DNA of 53,155 bases, from IMG/VR virus record IMGVR_UViG_3300029266_002291, positions 1 to 53,155 of that record; one strand, 5' to 3'. Positions within the stretch are counted from its first letter, which is position 1; each line of letters begins with the position of its first letter. The translations under genes were made by a program, and so were the position numbers. The DNA is from a virus. Of this stretch, positions 4,368 to 12,111 are shown one piece after another. The notes beneath the pieces were generated by a model. That model ran no database searches, was not told the origin of the DNA, and worked only from the letters and a program-made list of their open reading frames with translations.

Positions 4368-4756
4368 GCGCCGACGCCTGCCCGCCCGGCGTGCCCGAGG
4401 GCGCCCGATGCGTGACCCTGGCCCAGCTCCGCGACGAGGTGGCTAAGGAGAGCGGCAGCCTCCGGCGCGGGCCGCGCGGATCCTACCTGCGGTTCAAGAT
4501 CTGGCAGCCCAAGATGCTGTTCAGCGTGATGGGCACCGCGCGGGCTGTACTGGGCGGCGGGGTGAGCTCCGAGCACGGTCAGCGGGTGTTCGCACTGGAG
4601 TACGCCACCGGCATCCGGCGACCGGGCAGCTGGAGGGTGCTGGCGTTCACCGGCCCCAACGACTGGGCCGAGGTTCAGGTCTGGATCTGGACGCTGGACG
4701 ACGCCGAGCGTGAGCGGAAGACGCGCATCGCCGCGCGGGAAGCGAGGAGTGCATGA
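4364..4756 (+). CDS. Hypothetical protein, 130 aa
   Basis: I chose GTG at 4364 because it overlaps the preceding TGA as GTGA, the coupling seen throughout this genome. The protein has a basic, Trp-containing core (RFKIWQPKMLFSVMGTARAV; AEVQVWIWTLDDAERERKTR) and an Arg/Ala-rich helical end. Its stop overlaps the helicase ATG. No family recognised. Its place in a helicase operon suggests an accessory role in DNA metabolism. Confidence 0.65.
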   Translation: MSADACPPGVPEGARCVTLAQLRDEVAKESGSLRRGPRGSYLRFKIWQPKMLFSVMGTARAVLGGGVSSEHGQRVFALEYATGIRRPGSWRVLAFTGPNDWAEVQVWIWTLDDAERERKTRIAAREARSA

Positions 4757-7317
4757 GCACGCTGACGAAGATCCTCGACCACATCGGCTTTGCGCCACGA
4801 CCGCAACAGGTCGCGCTCTACGAGGCCCTCATCGAGGCTGACGAGCAGGGGGTCGTCGCTCAGGCTGGCACCGGCTGCATCCAGGGCGACGCCGAGATCA
4901 TCATCAACCGCGGCGGCAACGGCGTTCGCCGACCACTCCGCGAGCTCGTCCACAAGTTCAACGGCGGAGTGGACGAGCGAGGGAAACGTTGGAACCTGAG
5001 AATCCCCACGATGGTCCAGCGCAAGGCTGCCGACGGGACGATCCGACTCGCCCGACTGAAGGCCGCGTGGTACAGCGGGATCAAGCAGACCTACACGGTC
5101 ACCACCTCCACCGGCCGTCAGGTCCGGGCTACAGACGAGCATCCCTTTCTGACCGAGCGCGGCTGGCTCCGGCTCGACGAACTGCAGATCGGTGAGTTGG
5201 TCCACGTCCGCGGCGAGCAGGCGGCCGGGAGGAAGTGCCAGCCGAAGCCCCAGTACGTCCAGGTGCACGGATTGGTCGGCCACCCCGGCGCGAGTCGCCG
5301 CGGCTACAAGCGCCACGGCTACCGCTACCCGCAACATCGGCTCGTGATCGAGGCCGAGATGAACGGACTGGACTACGACCTGTTCGTCAAGCGGCTGCGG
5401 GACGATGATGCTGACGACCTAGTCTTCCTGAGTTCGGAGCTCTACGCGGTTCACCACATCGACCGCGACTCGCAGAACAACGAGCGATCGAACCTGCAGG
5501 TGATGACCCACGAAGATCACCACCGCCTGCACGCCGACCTGGGTAAGACGCGGAGCGTCCTCTACAAGGCCGTCACGGAGGAGGTCGTCTCGGTCGAGCC
5601 CTACGGCATGGAGGAGACCTACGACCTGGAGGTTGAGGACGACCCACACAACTTCATCGCCAACGGCTTCGTGGTGCACAACACCGGTAAGTCGATCGCT
5701 GTACTTGCCGCGGCGGCCGACATGCGCGAGCTTCACGCAAAGCCGACCCTCGTCATCTGTCCGACCAATATCTTGCTCGACCAGTACCTCAACGTCGACG
5801 CGCCGCGAGTGTCCGAGGCGCTCGGCATCACGATCAAGTCGCTGAAGGGCCGCAACCGCTACCTCTGCAGCAATGCGCCGGGCTTCTCCGGCGTCGGCCG
5901 CCTGCCCGACGAGGTGATCGCCGCCGAGGTCGAGATGAACCAGCGGCTGCACGAGGAGGAGATCTACGAGCCGGAGAACACGCAGTGGTTCGGCTGCCCC
6001 GGCAGCGACGAGTGCGACCCGCGCAACGAGGACACCATCTGCCACTACCGTCGGGCCAAGAACGACCTCGACGGCGCCGACATCATCGTCACCAACGCGC
6101 ACCTGTTGATCATCAACGATCAGCTGCGCGGCAAGCCCCCGATCGAGCTCAAGGACAAGGAGACCGGTGAACCCATCGGCGAGTACCAGCCCAGCATCTT
6201 CCCCGAGCACGGCGCCGTCTTCGTCGACGAGGCCCACACCCTCGAGGACAACCTCCGCTCCTTCGCTACCCGAAGCATCCCTCTGGGAGCTGTTGACGGG
6301 CTGGGGCTGGGGACGTGGCTGGTCGGCCAGCAGCGCGCCCACCGCAGGGCCGTCGCCGTCACCCCCACCCGAGAACTGGCCGCGGCGCTGAAGGAGGTCG
6401 CCGACCAGCGTGACCCGGACCTCAACAAGCGGCAGAAGGAGGCCGTCGCCGCGGCGGCCTACATCATCCAGCGCGGGCAGGACAAGGCCTACGCCGAGAA
6501 CGAGGCCGTGCTCTGGTTCGACCCGCAGGAGTACCCGAAGAAGCCACGGCTGGTGAGCACCCAGATCAACCTCGCCGGTGGGGCTCGCCGGATCCTCACC
6601 GCCCAGCCATTCGGCCTCGTGTCGGGCACGGTGTCGAAGAGCCTCCGCGGCGCGCTCGGCATCACCGACGCCACCTTCCTGGATTGTGGGCACCCGTTTG
6701 ACTACGGCAAGCAGGTGACGCTGAAGATCAGCTCAAAGTCCGGCAGCTTCAAGGCGACGAAGAACAAGCCGGAGTGGACGATCGACCGGTTCAAGGAGAT
6801 CGAGGCCGCCGTCCGCGACTCCGGCGGCGGCGCGCTCCTCCTGTTCTCCAGCTACAAGGACATGGAGAACGCCTACTACTGGCTGAACAGGGCGTTGCTC
6901 GGCTCCGGGCTGGACCTGCGCACGCAAACGCGTGAGGGCGACAAGCGGGAGCTGGGCCAGTGGTTCAAGGACCACGGCAACGCCGTCCTGTTCGGCACCG
7001 AGTCCTTCGCCACCGGCTTCGACGTCCCCGGCGACGCGCTGCGCCTGGTGGTGATCTGGAAGCTGCCTTACCCTGGCCTGGACCCGGTGACGAAGGCCAT
7101 CTCGGCCCGTAGTCGCCAGCGGTACGAGGACATGATGCTAATGAAGGTCACGCAGGCCGCGGGGCGCCTGATCCGCACCTCGACCGACACCGGCACGATC
7201 TTCATCGCCGACTCCCGCGCCGAGGATGTCCTCTTCGGCCGCGACGACCCGATGATCGCCCACTTCGAGGAGATGGCCATGCCGAAGAAGAAGACCCGCG
7301 CCTGGGATGTCGAGTGA
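4753..7317 (+). CDS. DinG/XPD-like superfamily 2 helicase interrupted by an intein
   Basis: The precursor has 854 residues; removing the intein (residues 42-310) leaves about 585. Joined exteins restore a Walker A motif AGTGTGKS, preceded by a Q-like motif (FAPRPQQVAL). The DEAH box is VFVDEAHTLED. Four Cys (YLCS, FGCPG, DECD, TICHY) fit the Fe-S cluster of the XPD/DinG group, and DIIVTNAHLLI is typical of that group. The C-terminal motifs FATGFDVPGDALRLVVI and QAAGRLIR are the helicase domain-2 signatures. These enzymes unwind DNA 5' to 3', so a role in replication, recombination or R-loop removal is likely. The start overlaps the previous stop by ATGA. Confidence 0.88.
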   Translation: MSTLTKILDHIGFAPRPQQVALYEALIEADEQGVVAQAGTGCIQGDAEIIINRGGNGVRRPLRELVHKFNGGVDERGKRWNLRIPTMVQRKAADGTIRLARLKAAWYSGIKQTYTVTTSTGRQVRATDEHPFLTERGWLRLDELQIGELVHVRGEQAAGRKCQPKPQYVQVHGLVGHPGASRRGYKRHGYRYPQHRLVIEAEMNGLDYDLFVKRLRDDDADDLVFLSSELYAVHHIDRDSQNNERSNLQVMTHEDHHRLHADLGKTRSVLYKAVTEEVVSVEPYGMEETYDLEVEDDPHNFIANGFVVHNTGKSIAVLAAAADMRELHAKPTLVICPTNILLDQYLNVDAPRVSEALGITIKSLKGRNRYLCSNAPGFSGVGRLPDEVIAAEVEMNQRLHEEEIYEPENTQWFGCPGSDECDPRNEDTICHYRRAKNDLDGADIIVTNAHLLIINDQLRGKPPIELKDKETGEPIGEYQPSIFPEHGAVFVDEAHTLEDNLRSFATRSIPLGAVDGLGLGTWLVGQQRAHRRAVAVTPTRELAAALKEVADQRDPDLNKRQKEAVAAAAYIIQRGQDKAYAENEAVLWFDPQEYPKKPRLVSTQINLAGGARRILTAQPFGLVSGTVSKSLRGALGITDATFLDCGHPFDYGKQVTLKISSKSGSFKATKNKPEWTIDRFKEIEAAVRDSGGGALLLFSSYKDMENAYYWLNRALLGSGLDLRTQTREGDKRELGQWFKDHGNAVLFGTESFATGFDVPGDALRLVVIWKLPYPGLDPVTKAISARSRQRYEDMMLMKVTQAAGRLIRTSTDTGTIFIADSRAEDVLFGRDDPMIAHFEEMAMPKKKTRAWDVE
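4876..5682 (+). mobile_element. Intein with HNH homing endonuclease, inside the helicase Walker A
   Basis: The 269-residue element begins with Cys (CIQGDAE) and ends with His-Asn (FVVHN) before Thr, the classical class 1 splice junctions. Block B is RATDEHPFL, and the closing blocks are ETYDLEVEDDPHNF and IANGFVVHN. The middle carries an HNH nuclease, VHHIDRDSQNNERSNLQVM followed by HEDHHRLH. It splits AGTG from TGKS, the most conserved point of the ATPase, as homing elements usually do. The reading frame is open throughout, so splicing is probably active. Confidence 0.9.
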
Positions 7318-8973: not shown

Positions 8974-9007
8974 TCTGACATCGTTTTGTTTCTACAACCG
9001 AAAGGAG

Positions 9008-9487
9008 GTGATCCCCATCCCATCCCTTCTTGAGGAAGCGGTCAAGCCGCTCGAACCGAATGAGCCGATCCCCCAGGATCTGCTCAACACCGTGACGGTC
9101 TCGCACATCGGTCCTACCTGGGAGCCGAACCCGAACTGGAACGGCGTGAATCTGCTCGGCCCCGAAGGCAAGTACATCCTGCCGGAGTTCTCGCTGGGCT
9201 ACCAGGCATGGGCGTGGGTGCGAGAGAATCTGCTCGCACCCGACTCCAACGACGCCCAACCCACGCCATTCACGCCGACGTTCGAGCAGTACCGCTTCGT
9301 TCTCTGGTGGTACGCCGTCGATAGCCATGGCCGCTTCCTATTTCGCCGCGGTGTTCTGCAGCGATTGAAGGGGTGGGGCGATTTTTTGGCAAGGACCCTC
9401 TTGCCGCAGTCATTTCCGCGATCGAGCTGCTCGGCCCGTGCCGCTTCAAGGGTTGGGCGACCAAGGATCTCCCGCAGTACGGCCTAG
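9008..9487 (+). CDS. terL: Terminase large subunit, N-terminal segment (zero frame)
   Basis: This frame encodes the TerL N-terminus: GPTWEPNPNWNGVNLLGPEG, then YRFVLWWYAVD, then FLFRRGVLQRLKGWG, the lead-in to the ATPase P-loop. Homology stops at GWG near 9379, and the remainder (to 9487) is out of frame. The rest of TerL continues in the -1 frame from about 9388. The start is unclear. The GTG at 9008 is inside the ribosome site AAAGGAGGTG, and no ATG/GTG/TTG follows at normal spacing; ATC at 9017 is spaced correctly but would be a very rare start. Confidence 0.75.
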   Translation: MIPIPSLLEEAVKPLEPNEPIPQDLLNTVTVSHIGPTWEPNPNWNGVNLLGPEGKYILPEFSLGYQAWAWVRENLLAPDSNDAQPTPFTPTFEQYRFVLWWYAVDSHGRFLFRRGVLQRLKGWGDFLARTLLPQSFPRSSCSARAASRVGRPRISRSTA

Positions 9488-12111
9488 ACCCCCAGGGACG
9501 CGCCGTAGTGCGTCGAGGCCTGCCCGTCGCGGCCGAGAACCCCACCGCGTGGGTGCAGATCGCCGCCGTCACCAAGACGCAGCCGCTGGCGCTTGACACT
9601 CCGGTTCGGACTATCAACGGCTGGTCGACGATGGGCGAACTCAAGGTCGGCGATGCCGTTTTCGGCTCCGACGGTCAGCCTGTCCCAGTGGCTCGTGAGA
9701 CCGAGGTGATGCATGGCCTGAAGTGCTACGAGGTCTCCTTCTCCGACGGAGAGAAGATAACGGCCTCGGCTAGCCACGGCTGGACCGTCGAGGGGCGCAA
9801 CGGACACGACGACGGCTTCATCAAGGAGACGTTGTCCACCGAGGAGCTGGCCGAGCGCTGGGATCGGAAACGCTGGCGATTCCGCATCCCGATCGTGCCG
9901 ATCATCACCGAAGATCGTGACCTGCCGCTCGACCCCTACATGCTCGGGCTGTGGCTCGGGGATGGCGCGACCGCTGACTCCACGATTGCCATCGACTGGC
10001 GACTACGTGACGAGATCGAAAGCATCGTTCAGCCGTACGTCGGTCTGGATGAAGAAGTGATCTGGAAGTACCAGAAGGGGAACTCCGGCACGTTCCGCAT
10101 CAGGACACGCCAGTACGTTTGCCCGCGCGGTCATCACTACGTGGACAACTACTGCATCCAGGCGGGCAACAAGGTGTGCCGCACCTGTATTCGTCTTGGC
10201 AAGGCGGGGCGCGCAGATGCACCCACCATCCCGACGTTCCGTGAGAAGCTGCGCGACATCGGAGTGCTGGGGGACAAGCACATCCCCGACAGTTACTTCC
10301 AGGCCGGGAGCAACCAGCGCCTCGCACTGCTTCAGGGTCTGATGGACTCCGACGGTGGCATCAGCCCCGGTGGCCGCGCCACCTTCACCAACAAGAACCT
10401 TGAGCTGATTGAGGGGATCTGTGAGATTCTCTCCTCTCTGGGGATTCGATGGAATGTGCAGCCCGCCGATAATGGCGCCCAACGAGTCCAGTTCACCCCC
10501 TGGGCGGCACTCAATCCCTTCCGCCTGGGTTACAAGAGGGAGCGGGTCCAGAGGGAGCGCCGTTACGCCCATCGCAGTATCGTTGGCGTCCGCGAGGTTG
10601 AGTCGGTCCCGGTGAAGTGCATCGGCATCGATACCGATGACCACCTGTTCCAGGTCGGATACTCGGGCATTCTCACGCACAACACTCAGAACACGATGTT
10701 GTTGATGCCTGGGCTCTTTAGTGACGAATGCAAGAGCAAGGCGCACATGCGCAACGACTCCATTGGCGTCACCAAGGTGACAGCTTTCCGTGGGCGCCGT
10801 CAGATTCAGGCTGTCACCTCAAACCCCCGCGCCCTGGAGGGCGGTCGCCCCTCACTGGTGATCAAGAACGAGACCGAGCACTGGATCGAGACGAACAACG
10901 GCTGGGCCATGGACAAGGCCATTGACCGCAACGCGGCGAAGTCCCGCAAGGGCGCCGCCCGGTCGCTGGCCATCTGCAACGCCCCCGAGCCGTCCGAGGA
11001 GTCCGTCGGCCTGAAGGAGCGCAACGCCTACCTCCGCGAGGTCGAGGGCACCGCGTTCAAGACCGGCGTCCTCTACGACTCCCTGGAGTTGGCGGAGTCC
11101 GTCACCCTCTACCCGCCGGGCATCGACCACCTGGAGCCGGAGTTCCAGGAGCCACTCGTCTACGAGTGGATCGAGTACGCGATCAAGAAGGTCCGCGGCG
11201 ACTCGTGGTGGCTGGACCCCGAGCGCATCGCCGCAGACATCCTGGACACCAAGGACTCCGACAACGGCGGCCTGTCCGAGGCCCGCCGGTTCTTCTTCAA
11301 CCAGACGATCGCCGCCGAGGACGCCTGGGTCCTTCCACAGGCTGTGGATCTCGCTGTGGACCCGTTGGTCGGCGCGCTGCGCACCCGCACCGCCGACGTC
11401 ATCCGCATCGGCTGGGAGCCCGTACGCCCCGACGAGCCGATCGTCATGTTCTTCGACGGCTCGAAGTCCGACGACGCCACCGCGCTGATCGGCTGCCGCC
11501 TGTCCGACGGCTACACCTTCACCATCGGCATCTGGCAGGCCCCACCGGGCCGGAGGCGCCGCGGGAAGAACTCCTGGCTGGCTCCCCGCGGTGAGGTCGA
11601 CACGCGCGTTGACGAGGCGTTCGAGCGGTTCACCGTCGTCGCCTTCTGGGCCGACCCCAGCCACGCCAAGGACGACGAGGACGGCGCGGGCTACTGGGAC
11701 GGCTTGATCGACGAGTGGCACCGCCTGCACAAGAACGAGCTGCTGCACTGGTCGACGAAGACGGGCGCCGAGCAGCACTCCATCCTATGGGACATGTCCT
11801 CGCCGCAGCGCACCAAGATGTTCGTCGCCGCGGCCGAGCGCACGGTCGCCGAGTTCGAGCGCCGCGACGAGCACAACGACATCGCCCCCACGTTCTCCAT
11901 CGACGGCAACCCGCGCCTCATGGAGCACCTCAAGAACGCCAAGATGGCGCCGAGCAACTTCGGCGTCGGCCTGCGCAAGGAGGGCCGTGAGAGTCTGCGT
12001 AAGATCGACGCTGCGGTCTGCCTGGTCGGCGCCCGACTCTTGCGTCGGATTGTGCTCAATGCCGAACCCGAGCCCGAGGAGCAGAAGGGCGGTTGGGCCT
12101 GGGCCGACTGA
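9373..12111 (+). CDS. terL: Terminase large subunit, main segment (-1 frame), with intein
   Basis: This frame continues TerL from GKDPLAAVISAIELLG onward. After removal of the intein (9583-10683) the exteins join as VTKTQ-TQNTM. The ATPase region holds the Walker B-like LVIKNETEHW. The nuclease domain starts at MFFDGSKSDDATALIG and continues with FWADPSHAKDD and KIDAAVCLVGARLL. These are the packaging motor ATPase and the RNase H-like nuclease that cuts concatemers. The GTG at 9373 has no ribosome site, so independent translation is unlikely. The product is probably made by -1 frameshifting from the upstream frame, unless a base is missing in the T-run. Confidence 0.88.
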   Translation: MGRFFGKDPLAAVISAIELLGPCRFKGWATKDLPQYGLDPQGRAVVRRGLPVAAENPTAWVQIAAVTKTQPLALDTPVRTINGWSTMGELKVGDAVFGSDGQPVPVARETEVMHGLKCYEVSFSDGEKITASASHGWTVEGRNGHDDGFIKETLSTEELAERWDRKRWRFRIPIVPIITEDRDLPLDPYMLGLWLGDGATADSTIAIDWRLRDEIESIVQPYVGLDEEVIWKYQKGNSGTFRIRTRQYVCPRGHHYVDNYCIQAGNKVCRTCIRLGKAGRADAPTIPTFREKLRDIGVLGDKHIPDSYFQAGSNQRLALLQGLMDSDGGISPGGRATFTNKNLELIEGICEILSSLGIRWNVQPADNGAQRVQFTPWAALNPFRLGYKRERVQRERRYAHRSIVGVREVESVPVKCIGIDTDDHLFQVGYSGILTHNTQNTMLLMPGLFSDECKSKAHMRNDSIGVTKVTAFRGRRQIQAVTSNPRALEGGRPSLVIKNETEHWIETNNGWAMDKAIDRNAAKSRKGAARSLAICNAPEPSEESVGLKERNAYLREVEGTAFKTGVLYDSLELAESVTLYPPGIDHLEPEFQEPLVYEWIEYAIKKVRGDSWWLDPERIAADILDTKDSDNGGLSEARRFFFNQTIAAEDAWVLPQAVDLAVDPLVGALRTRTADVIRIGWEPVRPDEPIVMFFDGSKSDDATALIGCRLSDGYTFTIGIWQAPPGRRRRGKNSWLAPRGEVDTRVDEAFERFTVVAFWADPSHAKDDEDGAGYWDGLIDEWHRLHKNELLHWSTKTGAEQHSILWDMSSPQRTKMFVAAAERTVAEFERRDEHNDIAPTFSIDGNPRLMEHLKNAKMAPSNFGVGLRKEGRESLRKIDAAVCLVGARLLRRIVLNAEPEPEEQKGGWAWAD
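9382..9388 (+). other. terL: Candidate -1 frameshift heptamer T TTT TTG inside the terL P-loop
   Basis: In the upstream frame the codons read GGC GAT TTT TTG. Slipping back one base gives TTT TTT GGC AAG GAC and restores TerL. The joined product would read GWGDFFGKDP (or GWGDFLGKDP), while my expectation from related TerL proteins is GWGKDP. So an extra segment is present whether the shift is translational or the T-run has lost a base. Confidence 0.6.
9583..10683 (+). mobile_element. Class 3-type intein with LAGLIDADG endonuclease in TerL
   Basis: The 367-residue element starts with Pro (PLALDTPVRTINGWSTMGEL) rather than Cys/Ser, and ends LTHN before Thr. Block B reads ITASASHGWTV, with Trp two after the His. 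Block F has Cys in VKCIGIDTDDHLF, and block G has Thr before His-Asn. This Trp-Cys-Thr set plus the missing N-terminal nucleophile is the mark of class 3 inteins. The endonuclease motifs are MLGLWLGDG and LLQGLMDSDGG. A zinc-ribbon-like insert (YVCPRGHHYV with NKVCRTCIR) lies between them. The frame is intact. Confidence 0.88.

Follow-up and report, generated by a model that had tools for sequence, protein, structure and literature searches.

A viral DNA stretch of 53,155 nucleotides (nt; IMG/VR record IMGVR_UViG_3300029266_002291, positions 1 to 53,155; hereafter referred to as the window) encodes a large terminase subunit (TerL) whose gene is split within the Walker A loop (P-loop) of its ATPase. 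Comparison with related genes suggests that this junction is read by translational bypassing, i.e. a hop of the ribosome over a short non-coding insert (estimated probability approximately 0.6). TerL genes of many relatives are interrupted at the same codon, and for this family as a whole bypassing is the mechanism in which we place considerably greater confidence.

The N-terminal part of TerL (9017..9379; all features described here are on the + strand) ends in LKGWG at GGC 9377-9379, and KDPLAAV resumes in the -1 frame at AAG 9391, from where the homology continues (AAG GAC CCT), the junction itself reading GGG TGG GGC GAT TTT TTG GCA AGG ACC. As the earlier note on this DNA had stated, the break falls exactly within the P-loop, and deletion of the 11 extra bases that separate the GWG and KDP codons, GATTTTTTGGC, the last three of which repeat the glycine codon, restores an ordinary GWGKDP. 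The N-terminal part (open reading frame, ORF, to 9487) matches PHROG terminase phrog_9 (8e-12) and is 40-45% identical to TerL of cultured actinophages. The remainder of phrog_9 is matched by ORF 9373-12111 (1.1e-29), which comprises TerL from KDPLAAV onwards, including its nuclease part (9391..12111, also recognized by its identity to locus L002), carries an intein and is intact to its end. If no ribosomal shift occurred, translation would enter a zero-frame tail given in the ORF list (9380..9487; stop at 9485-9487). Six T residues (9382-9387) precede the second GGC (9388-9390), and the 53 kb contain one other T6 run; TTT codons are seldom used by this phage (1.0 per 1000), and TTA does not occur among the 16,024 codons of the genes in the window. 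No second TerL was found within the window, no similarity to plasmid DNA was found, and no solved structure was retrieved by sequence at 0.001.

Interrupted TerL genes in related phages

To survey related junctions, IMG/VR and genome contigs were scanned with patterns anchored on the KGWG and KDP codons (other places and loops being sampled unevenly); candidate junctions were judged by reading the peptides on both sides, and BroPlease and Microbacterium phage vB_MoxS-R1 were added. In total, 33 distinct junctions in 48 loci were identified at GWG^KDP, with inserts of 4-13 nt. These loci include the phages phiHau3, GreenWeasel, BroPlease and vB_MoxS-R1, and isolated phages and prophages, sequenced independently, were shown to carry the same kind of break. 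Comparison with related TerL genes, which the earlier note had put forward as a check, thus revealed a recurrent interruption at the very codon affected in the window. The closest relative, L002 (TerL 67% identical over 473 aa), carries a different insert of 13 nt at the same point, with an in-frame TAG directly after the glycine codon (GGT TAGTTGAACA GGC AAG), and the Streptomyces phages phiHau3 and GreenWeasel exhibit the junctions GGC TTACTCC GGT AAG and GGC TTACCCC GGT AAG, respectively. Since this point is also interrupted in L002 and in dozens of further TerL genes, the break in the window is not attributable to chance.

The same comparison bears on the possibility that the break is an artefact of sequencing or assembly, or that a single phage particle carried a defective gene; the earlier note had raised this in the form of an insertion combined with a missing T (six T read for seven). 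The window is one metagenomic contig and its break sits at a homopolymer; furthermore, a second contig with its insert, in which the T residues (six or seven) could be counted, was sought in IMG/VR and none was found, a candidate second copy in L347 being a chance match. Conversely, a seventh T would still leave an insert of 12 nt, in-frame and stop-free, where relatives are interrupted, and no surveyed relative carries such an insert. As independently sequenced isolates, prophages and contigs are interrupted at this codon, and the downstream part is intact, an error is considered improbable.

A search with the C-terminal part of TerL yielded one further junction, which is outside the 33 (L282, GGT TTACC GGA). 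The share of interrupted genes was estimated from 80 TerL chosen by this C-terminal part: six of approximately 56 GWG loops were interrupted, compared with none of the 16 inspected GHG/GAG loops, a difference that is not significant. KGWG precedes every KDP-type site found, but the scans had themselves been anchored on KGWG. A search of IMG/VR for longer inserts, of 35-64 nt before GGN-AAR, found none, and 393 genomes from the order of G001 yielded one TerL site, which was already known. A further candidate from this host-genome survey (L350) was a chance match, and pattern matches that were not TerL (e.g. L017, L018, L027 and L037) were left out. In L315, near position 1672, GGCAAAAGAT contains one extra A at the corresponding place in the P-loop; this could be an insert of a single base or an error of sequencing, and the locus was not counted. 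L034, which has a TGA-type Walker A insert, also contains a lone in-frame TGA approximately 327 codons after KDP (GAF*DPAHW), indicative of either further recoding or an error.

Layout of the inserts and the proposed hop

The inserts were shown to share a common layout, consisting of a take-off GGN, then in most cases a stop or UUA codon, and then a second GGN directly before the lysine codon. Written as take-off, gap and landing, examples are GGC A GGC, GGT T AGC, GGT TA GGT, GGT TGA GGT, GGC TTAC GGC, GGC TTACC GGC, GGT AGACC GGC, GGC TAACTA GGC, GGT TAGCTA GGC, GGT TGAAACC GGA and GGT TGACCACCC GGA. Among the 33 junctions, the codon following take-off is TTA (10), TGA (8), TAG (6), TAA (3), CCA (2), AGA (2), AGG (1) or, in the window, GAT (1). 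TTA or a stop thus occupies this position in 27 of 33 cases, compared with a mean of 1.8 and a maximum of 9 when the bases of each insert were shuffled (100,000 trials), and a stop lies directly 3' of the take-off codon in 17 distinct junctions, including that of L002, where the window has GAT. The insert ends in GGN in 28 of 33 cases (shuffle mean 2.3, maximum 10), the landing codon being AGC in four others and GAC in one. As the junctions are partly kin by descent, these shuffle figures describe the pattern and are not strict probabilities.

A stop codon comes first in each of the nine inserts whose length is a multiple of three; the 16 that open with a sense codon all have other lengths and hence disrupt the frame. 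It follows from this rule that normal reading is blocked by every insert, and that the downstream frame is not what is kept. Consistent with this, near relatives vary in insert length and frame while the layout is constant, e.g. 8 nt in L022 versus 7 nt in L036, 8, 7 and 10 nt in L023, L052 and L038, respectively, or TAG with 9 nt in L249 versus TGA with 8 nt in L263. What the sequences conserve is 'GGN - gap - GGN - AAG' rather than a frame.

In the proposed mechanism, peptidyl-tRNA-Gly would depart from GGC 9377-9379 (the presumed take-off codon, i.e. the Walker A glycine codon, at the same position in all 33 distinct junctions), skip the gap GATTTTTT (9380..9387, as presumed from comparison with relatives) and re-pair with the presumed landing codon GGC 9388-9390, decoding being resumed at AAG 9391. 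In the window, the take-off and landing codons are matched (GGC and GGC). The product would be a single TerL chain whose Walker A loop has the usual GWGKDP sequence; the intein would subsequently be removed by self-splicing. Take-off may be aided by the KGWG nascent peptide and by G-rich mRNA, and the probable effect would be that TerL, of which few copies are needed, is made in small amounts or only under certain conditions. Because the landing codon is not decoded, a hop yields GWGKDP in every junction, including those with AGC or GAC landings.

The main rival is programmed -1 frameshifting on U UUU UUG (9382..9388), the first of the two readings offered by the earlier note; the T TTT TTG sequence that this note had placed at the junction is an intact heptamer in the correct frame for a -1 slip, and its X XXY YYZ form is that known from tail assembly chaperones and dnaX. 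The resulting P-loop would be four residues longer (GWGDFFGKDP). A shift of this kind is also compatible with the presumed A-site codon of the hop, GAU, which, unlike that of relatives, is not slow. Furthermore, GGT-TTA inserts create G GGU UUA, and three distinct ones (5, 8 and 11 nt; L253, L261 and L025/L043) would need a -1 shift, as would L282 (8 nt, GGT-TTA). However, relatives keep neither the heptamer nor the frame and share no heptamer among themselves, and a -1 shift leaves unexplained those that contain a stop or whose insert measures 4, 6, 7, 9, 10, 12 or 13 nt. Even where usable, such a shift adds two to four P-loop residues, whereas no surveyed TerL showed GWG and KDP separated by an in-frame insertion free of stops, the loop length being invariant; the predicted FIEDKDP (L025/L043) and GWGFSKDP (L253) would moreover lose the Walker A Gly-Lys. 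UUG is a weak A-site codon for a slip of the U UUU UUG type. Since relatives' inserts (4-13 nt) cover all lengths modulo 3 and are in many cases stop-first, and since a hop leaves the P-loop unchanged, bypassing is favoured over a -1 shift, which is regarded as unlikely.

The T6 run could alternatively promote slippage of RNA polymerase, such that some transcripts would contain seven U; the run lies precisely at the junction. Six T is, however, short for polymerase slippage, and relatives lack any such run, so that this explanation appears extremely improbable.

Several observations weigh against bypassing. The window is the sole junction of the 33 with an A-site codon other than a stop, UUA, CCA, AGA or AGG, at 8.1 per 1000 this GAU codon is not especially rare in the phage, and a perfect in-frame U UUU UUG heptamer arises at the gap. 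In relatives, the AGC (four) and GAC (one) landing codons pair only partly with tRNA-Gly. In addition, no conserved RNA fold around the site, nor one stronger than in uninterrupted TerL, was found, the 60 nt downstream of the site being slightly less structured on average in interrupted genes. It is because GAU is neither a stop nor especially rare, and because of the perfect heptamer, that bypassing is held with lower certainty for the window than for the family.

Selection, descent and start codons

Both halves of TerL are under purifying selection, as dN fell well below dS on either side of the junction in 18 of 18 pairs, including pairs with different insert lengths (frames); the weakest contrast was observed for the window and L002 downstream of the site (0.33 versus 0.69 over 59 codons). 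The interrupted state requires 16 changes on a tree built by a quick method from 146 TerL, at least nine of which are forced by well-supported branches, and 20 changes are required on a larger TerL set, which implies many gains or losses of the sites. A homing endonuclease was considered as one potential source of the inserts.

An in-frame GTG at 9373, 18 nt before AAG, would permit TerL to be made as two proteins, the second starting with MGRFFGKDP. However, L002, L028, L036 and L054 have no downstream-frame start near the junction; the downstream frame often lacks a start codon for 26-51 codons after KDP, and the codons between KDP and the first downstream start are conserved. Moreover, a split within Walker A would require two pieces to form one P-loop. 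Given this scarcity of downstream starts, the two TerL halves must be joined. The two-protein model was rejected for most relatives, which have no such starts, and is overall very improbable.

In phiHau3, GreenWeasel, L048, L256 and L269, a second insert is located directly before VVLNE, which by its form would represent a Walker B-like motif. This insert (TCT TTAACGG TCC, TCT TTAGCGG TCC or TCT TTAG TCC) has the same layout with serine codons, lies approximately 100 codons after KDP (L015, L016, L048, L256 and L269) and was seen only in TerL genes interrupted at Walker A; TerL of the window has no such second site. Interrupted TerL genes get annotated as broken or hypothetical: in the public record of GreenWeasel (L015, 2403-4069), TerL appears as two hypothetical proteins and a terminase, and is annotated in pieces because of its two inserts.

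A further feature concerns the start of the gene. The TerL gene of the window is preceded by a Shine-Dalgarno site, AAGGAGGTGATC (9002..9013), identified from the sequence and a start scan as a 12-base anti-Shine-Dalgarno match; two GGAGGTGA sites are present in the window, the full 12-base match being restricted to 9002..9013. The mechanical ORF start, GTG 9008-9010, falls inside this site, and TerL of the window probably starts at ATC (9017..9019), 8 nt after GGAGG, as suggested by the start scan and by relatives. L039 and L053 have no in-frame ATG, GTG or TTG before the conserved GPTW, leaving an AUY codon as the only candidate, and probable AUC/AUU starts behind a strong Shine-Dalgarno site were also noted in L015, L023, L036, L039, L053, L249, L263 and others. 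Among the 39 interrupted TerL whose start could be read, 23 had AUC or AUU, approximately 8-10 nt after a Shine-Dalgarno site, as the best start, compared with one of 105 uninterrupted TerL taken among the matches listed; 18 of these 23 have a Shine-Dalgarno match of at least seven bases. This test was made after the pattern was seen, and correction for descent gave the same direction (approximately four pairs to none), a number too small for significance.

Relation to known systems, and inteins of the window

To our knowledge, natural bypassing is known from very few cases, i.e. T4 gene 60, yeast mitochondria and the suggestion made for phiHau3. The view that recoding in a terminase is unknown, which the earlier note had voiced for programmed frameshifting, is incorrect, as likely bypassing had been proposed for the terminases of Streptomyces phage Hau3 (phiHau3) and StrepC.1, where it was tied to UUA and the KGWG nascent peptide was pointed to (PMC5009743). 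These terminases resemble that of the window in gene and codon (KGWG, then KDP), in the short insert between the Walker A glycine and lysine codons, and in glycine take-off and landing codons. They differ in that the A-site codon of phiHau3 is UUA and its gene is interrupted again before VVLNE, whereas the window has GAU, a T run, no UUA after take-off and no second site. Bypassing in the phiHau3 terminase is said to have been originally reported by Smith et al. in 2013.

The literature search retrieved no report of stop-codon forms or of sites outside Streptomyces phages, and no later paper on terminase bypassing. As far as found, the stop-codon (TAG, TGA, TAA), CCA, AGA and AGG forms, the repeated gain or loss, and the associated AUC/AUU start are unreported. 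Judged from the sequences surveyed, interrupted TerL genes form a much larger family than earlier descriptions indicate, with a looser link to UUA, UUA control being at most one form of TerL interruption, and bypassing, if true, seems common in actinobacterial viruses.

T4 gene 60 likewise uses glycine take-off and landing codons, and a stop directly after take-off, as in its GGA UAG, is found in L002, L028, L034, L039, L042, L049, L050 and others, but not in the window. Its gap of approximately 50 nt lies in a topoisomerase gene and needs stem-loops, whereas the terminase gaps are 1-10 nt long and no conserved stem-loop was found. Mitochondrial genes of Magnusiomyces capitatus similarly contain short inserts that are removed at translation at many sites; these, however, involve a mitochondrial ribosome and dozens of genes, compared with one or two fixed motifs in one phage gene here. 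The AUU start of infC (IF3) is comparable with the AUC/AUU codons that follow a strong Shine-Dalgarno site in many interrupted TerL genes, the gene here being a phage terminase.

A broader and doubtful proposal is that many actinophage TerL genes are gated twice, by an AUC/AUU start behind a near-perfect Shine-Dalgarno site and by the Walker A hop (in some cases with a second hop before VVLNE), so that the motor would be made only in a particular translation state; hop sites would be repeatedly gained and lost, with UUA, stop and rare codons acting as interchangeable triggers. If so, TerL is perhaps timed late in infection or after induction, maybe after the phage has altered ribosomes or factors. 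The question raised is why an essential ATPase is repeatedly interrupted in its catalytic loop; 33 natural junctions at one codon, varying in gap, A-site codon and landing codon, would provide a system with readable, testable rules.

The TerL intein (9583..10683; 367 aa, Pro1 to Asn367, followed by Thr as +1 residue) contains a LAGLIDADG_3 domain (Pfam PF14528, 27.5 bits; cut-off 22.5), its boundaries being taken from the extein match. With its initial Pro, the Trp of SHGWTV and the Cys of KCIGID, it looks like a class III intein. A second intein (4876-5682; Cys1 to Asn, +1 Thr) is located in the Walker A loop of a helicase ORF (4753-7317; AGTG^TGKS).
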